64,000 nt of DNA, from contig NZ_CP112866.1 of assembly GCF_026410085.1 (NCBI RefSeq), forward strand, positions 4,339,001-4,403,000, in the 5' to 3' direction. Made by a program: the position numbers and the translations under genes. The DNA is from Pseudomonas quebecensis (GTDB lineage: Bacteria > Pseudomonadota > Gammaproteobacteria > Pseudomonadales > Pseudomonadaceae). Shown one piece after another: positions 13,377-54,613 of the stretch. Position 1 is the first letter of the stretch. Each line of letters starts with the position of its first letter. The notes below the pieces were generated by a model that did not search any database, was not told the origin of the DNA, and saw nothing but the letters and a program-made list of their open reading frames with translations.

Positions 13377-13458
13377 GGTGGTCTCCTTTACAGTCGGTGG
13401 TTAAACGCTAGACCGGATGCCGGGTTCTCGCCAATTTAACGCCTGGTGGAGAAAAAAT

Positions 13459-13547
13459 GTGGGAGAGTTCTTGCCCCCGATGACTGTGTGTCAGCCAGTA
13501 CATCCAGGGCTGACACACTGCTATCGGGGGCAAGCCCCCTCCCACAT
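13459..13547. repeat. REPIN (REP doublet), degenerate left arm
   Basis: TGTGGGAGAGTTCTTGCCCC on the left and its near-complement GGGGGCAAGCCCCCTCCCACA on the right enclose an inner pair (GTGTCAGCC / GGCTGACAC). This is the inverted REP doublet arrangement known as a REPIN in P. fluorescens. The left arm carries substitutions relative to the other copies. Together with the next element it fills the gene-free stretch 13377-13743. Confidence 0.8.
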
Positions 13548-13649
13548 TTGGGCCAAGATGTACTGGCAAATTCGCTACAATTTGGCCCGCTAGCTAATAG
13601 CCAATTTCCGCCTGACCAAGTTCCGGTTAGACACAACGCGGTAAAAAAA

Positions 13650-13739
13650 GTGGGAGGGGGCTTGCCCCCGATGGCTGTGTGTCAGCCAGTACATTCAGGG
13701 CTGACACACTGCTATCGGGGGCAAGCCCCCTCCCACATG
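13650..13739. repeat. REPIN (REP doublet) at the 3' end of prfC
   Basis: GTGGGAGGGGGCTTGCCCCC and its inverted partner enclose almost the same inner sequence as the previous element (GTGTCAGCCAGTACATTCAG). It lies 5 bp from the prfC stop codon and can fold into a long hairpin that may end or protect prfC mRNA. The two copies, about 100 bp apart, look like siblings. Confidence 0.85.
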
Positions 13740-13743
13740 TTGT

Positions 13744-24768: not shown

Positions 24769-27294
24769 GTGTTGAAGAAAACCCTGTTTCAGTTGCACTG
24801 GTTTTTCGGCATTACTGCCGGGCTGGTGCTGGCCTTGATGGGGATCACCGGAGCGGCCGTGTCGTTCCAGGATGAAATACTGCGGGCTCTCAACCCCAGC
24901 GTCCTGCACGTACAAAAACGCGAAGCCGGCGTGCTGCCGCCGGCCGAACTGGTGCGCAAGCTCGAAGCCGTCGAAGGCAAGACCGTCGCCATGCTGTGGG
25001 TAGAGCGCGACAGCGGCAATGCCGCGCGCGTGGCCTTCACCCCGCCGCCGGGTGAACGGCGTGGCCCGATGCGCTACTTCGACCCGTACACCGGCGAGTA
25101 CCTGGGCGACGCCGTCGGCCAGGATGTGTTGGGTTTTATCCTGCAACTGCACCGCTTCCTCGCCATCGGCGAAACCGGCCGGCAGATCACCGGCGCCTGC
25201 ACCCTGATCCTGGTGTTCTTCTGCCTCTCCGGCCTGTACCTGCGCTGGCCGCGCCAGGTCGCGAACTGGCGCGCCTGGCTGACCCTGGACTGGCGCAAAA
25301 AGGGCCGCAGCTTCAATTGGGACCTGCACTCAGTGTTCGGCACCTGGTGCCTGCTGTTTTATCTGTTGGCGGCGCTCACCGGGTTGTTCTGGTCCTACGA
25401 CTGGTACAGCCGAGGGCTGACCCAACTGCTGTCCGACGCCCCGCAGAACGAACGGGTACGCACGCGCGGCCCAGCGCCCGCAGGTCCGGCACCGGTGGCC
25501 AACTACGACGCAATCTGGAGCAGCCTCTACAGCAACGCCGGTCCTGACCTGAGCGCCTACAACATCCGCATGCCTGGCGCTGCCGGGCAACCGGCTACCG
25601 TGTATTACCTGCTGAGCGACTCGCCCCATGACCGCGCGCTCAACCAGATCAACCTGGACCCGGCCACCGGCGAGGTCCAATCCCATGATCGCTACGCCGG
25701 CAAGAGCCTCAAGGCTCAGTTACTGACCAGCATTTATGCACTGCACACCGGCAGCTACTTTGGCTTGATCGGGCGGATCGTGCTGACCGTCAGTTCACTG
25801 TTGATGCCGTTGTTCTTCATCACCGGCTGGTTGCTGTACCTGGATCGCCGTCGCAAAAAACGCCAGGTGCGCGACGCTCGCCAGCGCCTCGGCGCCAACC
25901 CCAGCGATGCCTCGGCGTGGCTGATCGGCTTTGCCAGCCAGAGCGGTTTCGCCGAACAACTGGCCTGGCAGACCGCCGGGCAACTGCAGGCTGCCGGCCT
26001 GCCGGTGAAAGTGCAGGCGCTGGGCAGCGTCAGCGCGGATGAGCTGCGCCAGGCGCACAACGCGCTGTTCGTGGTCAGCACCTTCGGCGACGGTGAAGCG
26101 CCCGACAATGCCCGTGGCTTCGAGCGCAGCGTGCTCGGCCAGGGCCTGTCGCTCAAGGGCTTGAACTACTCGGTGCTGGCCCTCGGCGATCGCCAATACC
26201 CGCACTTTTGCGGCTTCGCCCGGCGTCTGCATTTCTGGCTGACCAACCAGGGCGGCACAGCGTTATTCGCCCCGGTGGAAGTGGACAGCGGCGACACCCA
26301 CGCATTGCTGCACTGGCAGCAACAGTTGGGCGAACTGACCGGCCACGCCCCGGCCGCCGCCTGGCCAAGCACCCAGTACGAACACTGGACACTGAGCCAG
26401 CGCACCCTGCTCAACCCCGGCAGCGTCGGCGCGGGCGTGTACCTGCTGGGCCTCACGTCGACGTCGTCGCAGCACTGGGACGCCGGCGACCTGGTGGAAA
26501 TCCTGCCGCGCAACGCCCCGTCGGCAGTCGAGCACTTTCTGGCGGGCCTGGGCCTGCAAGGCAGCGACGGCGTACTGATCGAAGGGCTGGCACAAACCCT
26601 CGACCGGGCCCTGGCCACTCGCCAGTTGCCGGACAACCGCGCGCACCTGGTCGGCCTGCACGCCCAGGCGCTGGTGGACGCCTTGGTGCCGCTGGGCATG
26701 CGCGAATACTCCATCGCCTCGATTGCCGGCGACGGTGTGCTCGAATTGATCGTACGTCAGGAACGCCACGCCGACGGCCGCCTGGGCCTGGGCTCGGGCT
26801 GGCTCACCGAACACGCGCCCCTCGGCGGCGCGATCAGCCTGCGTCTGCGACGCAACAGTGGCTTCCACCTGCCGGACGCGCCGGTGCCGCTGATCCTGCT
26901 GGGCAACGGCACCGGGCTGGCCGGCCTGCGCAGCTTGCTTAAAGCGCGCATTGCCCAAGGCCAGCAGCGCAACTGGCTGGTGTTCGGCGAACGCAATATC
27001 GCCCACGACTACCTGTGCCGGGACGAGCTGCAAGGCTGGCTGGCCAGCGGCGATCTGGCGCTGTTGGACCTGGCGTTCTCCCGCGATCAGGCAGAGAAAA
27101 TCTACGTGCAGGATCGCCTGCGCGAGTCGGCGGATGTACTGCGCAGATGGCTGGCCGATGGCGCGGCGATTTATGTGTGCGGCAGCTTGCAGGGGATGGC
27201 TGCCGGGGTGGATCAGGCGCTGGTGGATATCCTCGGCCGTGAGGCGGTGGAGCGCTTGATCGAACAAGGCCGCTATCGCCGCGACGTCTACTGA
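24769..27294 (+). CDS. piuB: PepSY-flavodoxin-flavoreductase membrane protein PiuB
   Basis: This 841-aa three-part protein has PepSY-type membrane helices with paired His ([12 protein letters not shown] near residue 10, [13 protein letters not shown] near 125, [16 protein letters not shown] near 185, and a helix near 330). A flavodoxin-like domain spans about 380-510 ([35 protein letters not shown]). A sulfite-reductase-type FAD/NADP domain spans about 540-841 ([30 protein letters not shown]). It should carry electrons from NADPH through FAD and FMN to membrane haem, for periplasmic iron reduction. The start is GTG 24769, without a strong ribosome-binding site. It lies downstream of piuA but beyond a terminator. 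Confidence 0.9.
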
Positions 27295-27310
27295 GGTCAC
27301 CCAATGTGGG

Positions 27311-28541
27311 ATTGCATTTCAAGTCAGTGTTCTGTGCCAGTGGCGCTTTTTCAAACACCACTTCAGGCCCGGCGACAAACTCCCAGAACGGCTCGAAATC
27401 CTGGAGCGCCGCGCGATCCACTGTGGGAGGGGGCTTGCCCCCGATAGCGGTGGATCGCTCGTCTGATAAATGACTGTCACACCGTCATCGGGGGCAAGCC
27501 CCCTCCCACATTGGAATTGCATTTCAAGTCAGTGTTCTGTGCCGGTGGCGCTTATTCGAACACCACTTCAGGCCCGGCGACAAACTCCCGGAACGGCTCG
27601 AAATCCTGGAACGCCGCGCAATCCACTGTGGGAGGGGGCTTGCCCCCGATAGCGGTGGATCGCTCGTCTGATAAATGACTGTCACACCGTCATCGGGGGC
27701 AAGCCCCCTCCCACATTGGGATTGCATTTCAAGTCAGTGTTCTGTGCCGGTGGCGCTTTTTCGAACACCACTTCAGGCCCGGCGACAAACTCCCCGGAAC
27801 GGCTCGAAATCCTGGAACGCCGCGCGATCCACTGTGGGAGGGGGCTTGCCCCCGATAGCGGTGGATCGCTCGTCTGATAAATGACTGTCACACCGTCATC
27901 GGGGGCAAGCCCCCTCCCACATTGGGATTGCATTTCAAGTCAGTGTTCTGTGCCGGTGGCGCTTTTTCGAACACCACTTCAGGCCCGGCGACAAACTCCC
28001 GGAACGGCTCGAAATCCTGGAGCGCCGCGCGATCCACTGTGGGAGGGGGCTTGCCCCCGATAGCGGTGGATCGCTCGTCTGATAAACGACTGTCACACCG
28101 TCATCGGGGGCAAGCCCCCTCCCACATTGGGATTGCATTTCAAGTCAGTGTTCTGTGCCGGTGGCGCTTTTTCGAACACCACTTCAGGCCCGGCGACAAA
28201 CTCCCGGAGCGGCTCGAAATCCTGGAACGCCGCGCGATCCACTGTGGGAGGGGGCTTGCCCCCGATAGCGGTGGATCGCTCGTCTGATAAATGACTGTCA
28301 CACCGTCATCGGGGGCAAGCCCCCTCCCACATTGGGATTGCATTTCAAGTCAGTGTTCTGTGCCGGTGGCGCTTTTTCGAACACCACTTCAGGCCCGGCG
28401 ACAAACTCCCAGAACGGCTCGAAATCCTGGAACGCTGCGCAATCCACTGTGGGAGGGGGCTTGCCCCCGATAGCGGTGGATCGCTCGTCTGATAAACGAC
28501 TGTCACACCGTCATCGGGGGCAAGCCCCCTCTCACATTGGA
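27311..28541. repeat. Tandem array: six 205-206 bp units, each a phoD fragment plus a REPIN
   Basis: Six head-to-tail units start at 27311, 27516, 27721, 27927, 28132 and 28337, and a 16-bp start of a seventh (28542) runs into the phoD stop codon. Each unit has a 16-bp lead (ATTGCATTTCAAGTCA), about 100 bp matching the 3' part of the neighbouring phoD-like gene with a 51-bp internal deletion, and a 91-bp REPIN (27422-27512, 27627-27717, 27833-27923, 28038-28128, 28243-28333, 28448-28538). Units differ only at scattered bases; unit 3 has one extra C (TCCCCGG). No gene is seen here, and the small repeated frames of 60-70 codons lack ribosome-binding sites. Confidence 0.95.
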
Positions 28542-28554
28542 ATTGCATTTCAAG

Positions 28555-30096
28555 TCAGGTGGGTTGCAACTTCTGTTCGAATACCGAGACTCCATCCAAG
28601 TCGCGCAGGATCACCGTCAACTCCCCCGTCTGGCCATCGATATTCACCTCGCCAAAAAACTGAAACCCTGCAAACGGCGAGGTGTTCTGCGCCGGTGGCG
28701 CTTTTTCGAACACCACTTCAGGCCCAAACGTTTTATCCAGCGGATTGGGCCCGAAGCTGCCGGCGTTCAACGGCCCGGCGACGAACTCCCAGAACGGTTC
28801 AAAATCCTGGAACGCGGCGCGATCGGGATGGTAGTGGTGCGCGGCGCAGTAGTGCACATCGGCTGTCAGCCACACATGGTTACGCACCTGCTGTGCGCGC
28901 AGAAAACCCAGTAACTCAGCGATTTCCAGCTCGCGCCCCTGGGCCGGGCCTGGATCATTGTTGGCAATGGCCTCCCAGCGCGGCACGCCGGGGCTGACTT
29001 CGCCGTCGGGCACGCCCAGGCCGATAGGCATGTCGGCGGCGATGACTTTCCATTGCGCCGTTGAACCCTTGAGTTCGCCCTTGAGCCAGTCCAATTGTTC
29101 ACGACCGAGAAACGGTTTGGCCGCCCCCAGGTTGTCATCATTCGGGCCACGGTAGCTGCGCATGTCGAGCACAAATACATCCAGCAGCGGGCCATAACTG
29201 AGCTTGCGATAGATGCGCCCGCCGCCGTCGGCGCTTTGGCGGCGCATCGGCGAATACTCCAGCCAGGCCTGGCGTGCACGGCCTACGAGCGTGTTGATAT
29301 CGCGGGTCTGGTAGCGCTCGTCCAACTGCTTGCTCGACGACCAGTTGTTGATTACCTCGTGGTCGTCCCACTGCCAGATCTGCGGCACCTCGGCGTTGAA
29401 ACGGCGCACGTTTTCATCCATGAGGTTGTAGCGATAGTTGCCGCGGTATTCGTCCAGGGTTTCGGCGACTTTGCTCTTGGCTTGGGTGGTGATATTGCGC
29501 CAGATGCGCCCGCTTTCGGTCGCCAGTTGTGCCGGCACCGGGCCGTCGGCGTAGATGGTGTCGCCGCTGTGGATAAAGAAGTCCGGCAGACGCAGGCGCA
29601 TGGCTTCGTAGATGCGCATGCCGCCGATATCCGGGTTGATGCCGAAGCCCTGGCCGACGGTGTCGCCGCTCCACACGAAGCGAATATCGCGGCGCTGTTG
29701 CGGCACGCTGCGCAGATGGCCGAACCACGGTTCGCTGGCAACGCCGCTCTGGGCGTCTTCGAAGTGCACACGGTAGAAAATCGCCTGGTCGGCGGGCAAC
29801 CCGGTGAGTTCGACGCGGGCGGTGAAGTCCGTGCGGCTGTCGGCCAGCGGCGAGACGAAACGGCGCGGGTTGCTGAACACACTGCGGGTGTCCCATTCCA
29901 CCACCATCCGCGCCGGGCGGTCGCTGCGGCTCCAGATCATCGCGCGGTCGCCCAGCAGATCGCCGGACTGCACGCCATCGGTGAGTTGCGGCCGGTCCTT
30001 GACCGACGCAATCACCGCCGGCGCCAGGCCCGGCAGTAACAGACCGGCGCCGACGGCTTGCATCACGCGGCGACGGCCCAGATCGAAGTGGCTCAT
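28555..30096 (-). CDS. PhoD-family alkaline phosphatase/phosphodiesterase, Tat-exported
   Basis: This 513-aa metallophosphoesterase of the PhoD family should release phosphate from phosphoesters in the periplasm. The N-terminus carries a twin-arginine signal (LGRRRVMQAVGAGLLL; cleavage near residue 29). The PhoD N-terminal domain (DRPQLTDGVQSGDLL..) precedes catalytic motifs FVWSGDTVGQG, FFIHSGDTIYADGP, WDDHEVINNW and, near the end, WLTADVHYCAAHHYHPDRA. ATG 30096 starts the Tat signal; a longer frame to 30186 crosses into a REP. The gene's 3' end is the source of the adjacent repeat array. No Pho box was identified upstream. Confidence 0.9.
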   Translation of the reverse strand: MSHFDLGRRRVMQAVGAGLLLPGLAPAVIASVKDRPQLTDGVQSGDLLGDRAMIWSRSDRPARMVVEWDTRSVFSNPRRFVSPLADSRTDFTARVELTGLPADQAIFYRVHFEDAQSGVASEPWFGHLRSVPQQRRDIRFVWSGDTVGQGFGINPDIGGMRIYEAMRLRLPDFFIHSGDTIYADGPVPAQLATESGRIWRNITTQAKSKVAETLDEYRGNYRYNLMDENVRRFNAEVPQIWQWDDHEVINNWSSSKQLDERYQTRDINTLVGRARQAWLEYSPMRRQSADGGGRIYRKLSYGPLLDVFVLDMRSYRGPNDDNLGAAKPFLGREQLDWLKGELKGSTAQWKVIAADMPIGLGVPDGEVSPGVPRWEAIANNDPGPAQGRELEIAELLGFLRAQQVRNHVWLTADVHYCAAHHYHPDRAAFQDFEPFWEFVAGPLNAGSFGPNPLDKTFGPEVVFEKAPPAQNTSPFAGFQFFGEVNIDGQTGELTVILRDLDGVSVFEQKLQPT

Positions 30097-54280: not shown

Positions 54281-54284
54281 AATA

Positions 54285-54361
54285 TGGTCGGGGTAGGGGG
54301 ATTCGAACTCCCGACATCCTGCTCCCAAAGCAGGCGCGCTACCGGACTGCGCTATACCCCG
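54285..54361 (-). tRNA. tRNA-Pro (anticodon TGG), copy 2
   Basis: The 77-nt complement begins CGGGGTATAGCGCAG, has the anticodon loop TTTGGGA, T-arm GTTCGAATC, and an encoded CCA end. It is identical to the copy at 54537-54613. Confidence 0.95.
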
Positions 54362-54369
54362 GTAATAAA

Positions 54370-54391
54370 AAGGCGACCTTTCAGTCGCCTT
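54370..54391 (-). terminator. Internal hairpin between tRNA-Lys and the last tRNA-Pro
   Basis: AAGGCGAC and GTCGCCTT form a perfect 8-bp stem followed on the minus strand by TTTTATTA. It may end the Asn-Pro-Lys transcript or be a processing site. Confidence 0.6.
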
Positions 54392-54455
54392 CTTCGATCA
54401 GTGCTTTTGGCCTCTGATCTTAAGATCTGATCCCAGCGCTAACTGGTTTCAAAAA

Positions 54456-54531
54456 TGGTGGGTCGTGTGGGATTCGAACCTACGACCAATTGGTTAAAAG
54501 CCAACTGCTCTACCAACTGAGCTAACGACCC
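54456..54531 (-). tRNA. tRNA-Lys (anticodon TTT)
   Basis: The 76-nt complement begins GGGTCGTTAGCTCAG, has anticodon loop CTTTTAA and an encoded CCA end. The gap to the previous tRNA-Pro is only 5 bp. Confidence 0.95.
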
Positions 54532-54536
54532 AAATA

Positions 54537-54613
54537 TGGTCGGGGTAGGGGGATTCGAACTCCCGACATCCTGCTCCCAAAGCAGGCGCGCTACCGGACT
54601 GCGCTATACCCCG
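54537..54613 (-). tRNA. tRNA-Pro (anticodon TGG), copy 1
   Basis: A 77-nt tRNA identical to 54285-54361, including the encoded CCA and a few flanking bases (ATATGG side). Second gene of the cluster after tRNA-Asn. Confidence 0.95.

Follow-up and report, generated by a model that had tools for sequence, protein, structure and literature searches.

A tandem array of phoD gene tails and REPINs between two convergent genes of Pseudomonas quebecensis

The closest described counterparts of the element treated here, a tandem array of gene tails and REP doublets forming hairpins (REPINs; REP, repetitive extragenic palindromic sequence) in Pseudomonas quebecensis, are the ordered tandem REPIN clusters of P. 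fluorescens SBW25, in which near-identical REPINs recur together with their flanking sequence (Bertels and Rainey 2011, PMC3116915). In SBW25, 16 such clusters are counted, the largest holding four REPINs and one REP in more than 700 bp (PMC3116915). The present array lies in a stretch of 64,000 nucleotides, called the window below (RefSeq assembly GCF_026410085.1, contig NZ_CP112866.1, positions 4,339,001 to 4,403,000 of the forward strand), of a genome assembled as a single contig of 5,625,455 bases (G000). There, it fills the gap between a piuB-like gene and a convergent phoD-like gene, at window positions 27312-28542, with six head-to-tail units of 205 or 206 bp. Like the SBW25 clusters, it consists of near-identical REPINs including flanking sequence, and SBW25 carries its REP type, since the Pflu1 REP listed for that strain is identical in its letters to GTGGGAGGGGGCTTGCCCCCGAT (PMC2817692). 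It differs from them in that six units abut directly and in that the flank is the tail of a coding gene with internal deletions. As a head-to-tail series of a REPIN with its adjoining DNA, the array is a tandem REPIN cluster and a local tandem duplication of the kind already known around REPINs, built very probably by a single duplication of a REPIN together with the phoD tail, followed by exchange between the copies.

Structure of the array

Tandem Repeats Finder reports the array at 27307-28558, with a period of 205, 6.1 copies, 97% matches and a score of 2383, the highest among its five rows for the window. Reading unit by unit gives the following layout.

27312..27516, 205 bp: unit 1, with the phoD stop region and tail pieces at 27312-27419 and the REPIN at 27423-27509
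27517..27721, 205 bp: unit 2, tail at 27517-27624, REPIN at 27628-27714
27722..27927, 206 bp (one additional C): unit 3, tail at 27722-27830, REPIN at 27834-27920
27928..28132, 205 bp: unit 4, tail at 27928-28035, REPIN at 28039-28125
28133..28337, 205 bp: unit 5, tail at 28133-28240, REPIN at 28244-28330
28338..28542, 205 bp: unit 6, tail at 28338-28445, REPIN at 28449-28535
28543..28557: start of a partial seventh unit, which runs into the true phoD stop codon at 28555-28557 (TCA on the + strand)

An earlier note on this DNA, made from its letters, had described six near-identical head-to-tail units, the last of them running into the phoD stop, and both statements hold. It had also given each unit one REPIN, which is confirmed, and a single phoD piece of about 100 bp, which is not: from left to right, a unit is composed of TTGCATTTCAAG, the phoD stop (TCA on the + strand) followed by G, a 43-bp phoD piece, a 49-bp phoD piece, the joint, and the REPIN. 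Judged by sequence, the 3' end of phoD is the source of the tail pieces. The positions in and around this gene to which the units refer are listed below.

28559..28682, - strand: 124 bp of phoD missing from the units, just inside the stop; absent in the six window units, in three units read in a second strain of the species and in two units of Pseudomonas rhodesiae
28726..28776, - strand: 51 bp of phoD missing from the units, between two GGCCC copies; absent in the six window units and in the three units read in the second strain
28821..28825: phoD side of the duplication joint; GATCG in the window phoD, GATCC in the phoD of P. rhodesiae and P. grimontii
28555..30096, - strand: intact phoD-like gene (PF09423 and PF16655, PhoD and PhoD_N), with the ATG at 30096 taken as the start
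24769..27294, + strand: left convergent neighbour with PepSY_TM, flavodoxin and NAD-binding Pfam domains, presumably piuB, a name adopted from the earlier note
27303..27311: AATGTGGGA, which the comparison with P. rhodesiae suggests is a probable leftover of the piuB-side REPIN present in that species

The joint reads GCGATCC-ACTGTGGGAGG, with GCAATCC instead in units 2 and 6. All six copies of GTGGGAGGGGGCTTGCCCCCGAT in the array have an inverted partner, so that every unit holds two inverted REPs, short palindromes each headed by a tetranucleotide of GTAG/GTGG type, and, thus, a REPIN; one base of the partner is altered in unit 6. When a single array REPIN was folded, energies of -70.1 and -69.2 kcal/mol were obtained on the two strands (z -11.3 and -11.5). 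Five of the six units carry a private variant and unit 4 a private combination, while CCCAG, the older form, occurs in the edge units 1 and 6 and CCCGG in units 2-5. A lower mutation load of the REPIN part was considered and rejected, as variable sites number 3 in 97 there and 9 in 108 in the tail part, a difference that is not significant (p 0.14).

Distribution, relatives and probable origin

A search of the window genome with the unit, in which 40 of 311 first-look candidates were scored, returned only the six array units as whole-unit matches among the matches listed; the others corresponded to the hairpin part at 71-86% identity (short pieces excepted) or to phoD itself, and no copy of the unit at unrelated loci, as expected of a mobile composite element, was found among them. 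Dispersal over many unrelated loci was the outcome that the earlier note had set against a local amplification, and whole-unit matches are listed at the array locus alone. Among 398 genomes of the genus, searched at a threshold of 1e-25 with two candidates scored per genome in the results seen, so that arrays could be missed, at least 19 gave a match. The tail part was matched in three, namely the window genome, the second strain (G095, a draft) and a genome taken as P. rhodesiae DSM 14020 (G004), while in the other 16 the alignment ran from query base 94 onward, which is almost the REPIN alone. Moreover, 80 named phoD loci were searched for tail copies by tblastn of the phoD C-terminus (E <=1e-5), two of which (L090 and L104) end fewer than 70 bases past phoD and are uninformative on tail copies; extra phoD-tail copies were present in one of the 80, that of P. 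rhodesiae, and in one of a further 29 loci (L022), which belongs to the same P. rhodesiae genome. piuB lies within reach in 64 of the 80 loci and not in the other 16, these 64 have a median piuB-phoD gap of 138.5 bp, and 43 of the gaps contain inverted-repeat arms 12 bp or longer. In P. corrugata, the gap holds a tandem array of its own (L094, 4562-5109), with a period of about 133 bp and palindrome arms of 12, without phoD tail copies.

At the equivalent position, P. rhodesiae DSM 14020, whose neighbouring DNA is 93-95% identical to that of the window species, has the order piuB, REPIN, [tail, REPIN], [tail, REP], phoD. Its units have the joint and the 124-bp loss in common with those of the window, and instead of the 51-bp loss both carry a different one of 52 bp. 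The array is also present in the second strain, where the contigs break inside it and at least three tails can be counted, against six in the window genome and two in the draft of the other species. Two of the three units read in this strain share CACCATTTC and AAACCCCCGG, neither of which occurs in any of the six window units. The REPIN beside piuB is missing in both strains of the window species and, thus, the earlier statement that the array adjoins the 3' flank of piuB needs the correction that this side lacks the REPIN that P. rhodesiae has there. Outside the arrays, GATCCAATGTG is found beside a REP or a broken REP in three relatives that have no tail copies (L053, L054 and L055); this pattern matches four of the 64 gaps, and the fourth is the joint of the P. 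rhodesiae array. Furthermore, the units keep outgroup phoD bases at five sites that have changed in the phoD of the window genome: GACAAAC, GAACGCCGC, GATCC and GGCTC agree with all four outgroups, and TCGAAATCC with three of the four. The GGCTC site is altered in the phoD of both the window species and P. rhodesiae, which suggests that the duplication is probably older than the split between them.

These comparisons are consistent with a history in four steps. Relatives suggest that a single REPIN would first have stood in the gap where piuB and phoD end towards each other. The DNA from the outer edge of this REPIN to about 270 bp inside phoD would then have been duplicated once, joining phoD ...GCGATCC to a REPIN flank ...GATCC-AATGTGGG, probably via a 5-bp GATCC match; as phoD is directed towards the gap, the whole gene would have stayed in the far copy, the near one becoming a spare tail. 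phoD remains intact because the spare tails fall beyond its stop. Subsequently, 124 bp would have been lost from the spare tail, a loss that is seen in both species and would date from before their split. Finally, unequal recombination or slippage between copies would have altered their number and spread variants among them; what this step is built on, differing copy numbers and differing second deletions in the two species, is seen directly. The fixation of a different second deletion in each species is a stronger sign of homogenisation than the pattern of the edge units. Thus, the local amplification of a phoD fragment with a REPIN put forward in the earlier note is borne out by the reading of the array and by the species comparison, and the recent or continuing expansion suspected there finds its counterpart in turnover since the species split, as copy number and internal deletion differ between the species and the second strain has units with variants absent from the window genome.

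Several points weigh against this history. The GATCC match is taken from relatives, since the flank reads CACCCAATGTGGG in the window and CACTCACTGTGGC in P. rhodesiae, so that the ancestral flank is a reconstruction; starting from it, duplication via GATCC yields the observed joint except for one base, an A changed to C (AATG in relatives, ACTG at the joint). TGTGCC occurs in all units and in the phoD of P. rhodesiae, whereas the phoD of the window genome has TGCGCC and the outgroups have TGCGCC or TGCGCG; this site does not fit a simple history and would call for recombination or repeat mutation. The P. rhodesiae and second-strain assemblies are drafts, in which arrays may be collapsed, and where the P. 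rhodesiae units lack a site, the five-site argument draws on the units of the window species alone. Moreover, an edge effect among units, as suggested by CCCAG at the edges, is not borne out by the second strain, in which CCCGG is present in all three units read, edge units included.

Other palindrome duplications and rival explanations

The REP type of the array is dispersed in the window genome, with 236 forward and 214 reverse matches to GTGGGAGGGGGCTTGC (at most two mismatches), the reversed control giving 1 and 0. Two Y1_Tnp matches, the domain of REP-associated tyrosine transposases (RAYTs), are found in this genome. One (L169, 191 aa) is flanked by exact GTGGGAGGGGGCTTGC REPs on one side and by a two-mismatch REP on the other, and no GTGGGAGGGGGCTTGC REP was found within the stretch around the second (L170). 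On one side of the RAYT-like gene of L169 (genome positions 1863500-1866500), a pair of GI-type REPINs is present, with a similarity of about 95% and a distance of 1134 bp. In the window itself, a further pair of REPINs at 13452-13742 is 94% alike, loops included, and spaced 191 bp start to start, with a third partial match (23 bases) one period upstream; the adjoining gene is one that we take to be release-factor-3-like. Separately, an 81-bp direct repeat, 100% identical and 252 bp apart, occurs at 54281-54613, where the script found no inverted repeat. Two classes of hits were set aside: 14 Rfam microRNA-family matches (E up to 1), which are below gathering scores and reflect the REPIN hairpin, and terminator-like sites (9 found against 1.6 expected), which are copies of two weak motifs, one of them within the phoD tail, and were discounted as evidence.

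The earlier note had considered the amplification of a REPIN with a piece of a functional gene unusual. This view does not stand, as two more gene-tail and palindrome arrays exist in the genome, related duplications occur in other species and tandem REP arrays that include flanking DNA have been published. L163 (1305-2160; genome positions 810304-811159) has three copies of a 289-bp unit made up of the tail and stop of a gene resembling EIIB of the phosphotransferase system (PTS), one REP and a GATCGTTCCCACGC-type palindrome, the Pfam score of the gene for PTS-EIIB being 22.3 bits, below the cut-off of 27. L186 (4221-4968; 1829221-1829968) has 3.8 copies of a 197-bp unit with the tail and stop of a hybrid histidine kinase gene and a palindrome of the same type. 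In both, as in the phoD array, an intact gene, whose own end is the first copy, is accompanied by tandem copies of its tail with stop and by a palindromic element, but the genes and the palindrome type differ. The second strain shows both arrays, with contig breaks; two of its contigs (C35 and C37, read as L297 and L298) have palindrome arrays near their ends that pass into apparent insertion-sequence DNA, and on C37 the kinase and PTS arrays are joined, a possible effect of assembly collapse.

Six species were read at the gap between the kinase gene and a regulator gene. In G017 (L292), the series of kinase tail, GI-type REPIN and regulator tail occurs three times, P. rhodesiae (L293) has two REPINs and a copied regulator tail, and no tail copies were found in G051, G058 and G005; three of the six species, therefore, carry duplications of three kinds, involving the kinase tail, both tails and the regulator tail. 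For G047, the probe did not recognise the stretch, and G031 gave no match at this gap. The PTS gap holds one tail and one REPIN in G017, G047, G031 and G058, and for G004 and G051 the stretches again escaped recognition by the probe. A survey of direct repeats (at least 60 bp, 85% identity, offset below 1500) in evenly spaced 20-kb stretches, with genes called by a rough open-reading-frame heuristic and some places read by eye, covered 59 stretches of the window genome (about 21% of it) and the window, and 20 stretches each of G017 and G048. It returned nine repeat places in the 59 stretches, one of which (L186) overlaps a gene 3' end, and G017 and G048 yielded a single place apiece, neither of which the script put at the 3' end of a gene; L163 came from outside this sample, from the first 100 places of the REP match list. 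Gene-tail arrays seem to be few per genome. Palindrome-with-spacer arrays in which no gene tail was seen also occur, namely five tandem copies of a 149-bp palindromic element in an intergenic region of the window genome (L189, 1065-1802; 2246065-2246802) and an array of REPIN and spacer with a 135-bp period in G011 (L171, 1390-2290).

The array is real, and six is its unit count in the assembly. Arrays of short tandem units are notoriously hard to assemble and the second strain breaks at the array, but an artefact is very unlikely because the array lies on a single contig, has private variants per unit and is present in a second strain; in all, three assemblies contain it. It is hardly to be expected, either, that piuB read-through RNA with six antisense copies of the phoD 3' end lowers phoD expression: the direction fits, and a 35-nt perfect match to phoD occurs in four of the six units (17 and 21 nt in the other two), but the tails have diverged from phoD at several sites, and with no promoter-like site in 27250-28600 such RNA would depend on read-through past strong hairpins. 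Selection might also keep the array as a multi-hairpin 3' end that stops or protects the converging piuB and phoD transcripts, its copy number tuning the effect. Twelve REP sites in six hairpins, one of which was folded, do stand between convergent genes, REPs are reported to facilitate Rho-dependent termination (PMC2817692) and many relatives have a palindrome in this gap. Nevertheless, this explanation is improbable, given that relatives manage without tail copies, that copy number is unequal between the two species and that REPIN and tail do not differ significantly in variable sites, with no sign of a constraint on the hairpin only. As a side effect, to judge from the roles reported for REPs, the six hairpins could plausibly form a two-way barrier at the ends of the piuB and phoD transcripts, and a dedicated function for the array is unsupported by the evidence of this analysis. 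The simplest reading is a tolerated structural change that needs no function, because the extra tails beyond the phoD stop leave the gene whole.

Regarding the mechanism, a RAYT could have nicked the edge of the REPIN, with the freed end joining into the adjoining gene. By eye, the phoD, L163 and L186 joints are 0-3 bases from the outer edge of the palindrome, a Y1_Tnp gene has the REP type of the array beside it, and in other species RAYTs are reported to cleave single-stranded REP substrates next to the hairpin, at CT or CA (PMC8266576). This route is doubtful, however, as L163 and L186 carry a different palindrome type, a short match accounts for the phoD joint without an enzyme, and at the kinase/regulator gap of G017 and P. 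rhodesiae a joint lies past the REPIN, in the regulator tail; these two gaps also weaken the idea that one breakpoint is always at the palindrome edge. Apart from the duplication at phoD itself, it may tentatively be proposed that a REPIN or similar palindrome lying between convergent genes acts as a local hot spot of duplication, at which the 3' tails of adjoining genes are captured time and again, and that its edge, possibly via RAYT nicking, may set one breakpoint.

Comparison with described arrays

Beyond SBW25, the SMAG arrays of Stenotrophomonas maltophilia resemble the phoD array in that REP-like monomers or dimers are repeated in tandem with tracts of flanking DNA, but they belong to another REP family, have example units of 50 and 103 bp and, in the text available, come without mention of gene tails (PMC2613905). 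Clusters of GTAG-type REPs have been surveyed in many prokaryotes, and the large ones mostly include tandem series of singletons or dimers together with flanking DNA whose length varies (PMC3733652); that work is a general survey, in the available part of which no locus like the present one was found. More broadly, no statement on captured gene tails in REP arrays was found in the open-licence literature as far as it was available. Tandem inverted REP pairs are likewise a feature of BIME-2 (bacterial interspersed mosaic elements) of Escherichia coli, for which gyrase binding is reported (PMC2817692), but here a gene tail stands between the pairs.

Set beside these systems, the array offers an ordered example of the growth of a REPIN array, with a joint resolved to the single base, older phoD sequence kept in its units and homogenisation specific to each lineage. 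As arrays of this kind recur at other genes, REPINs and comparable palindromes seem to make small tandem duplications locally more frequent at gene ends. Moreover, as the copy number of SMAG arrays varies among strains and serves for typing (PMC2613905), the phoD locus may likewise be used as a strain-typing repeat.
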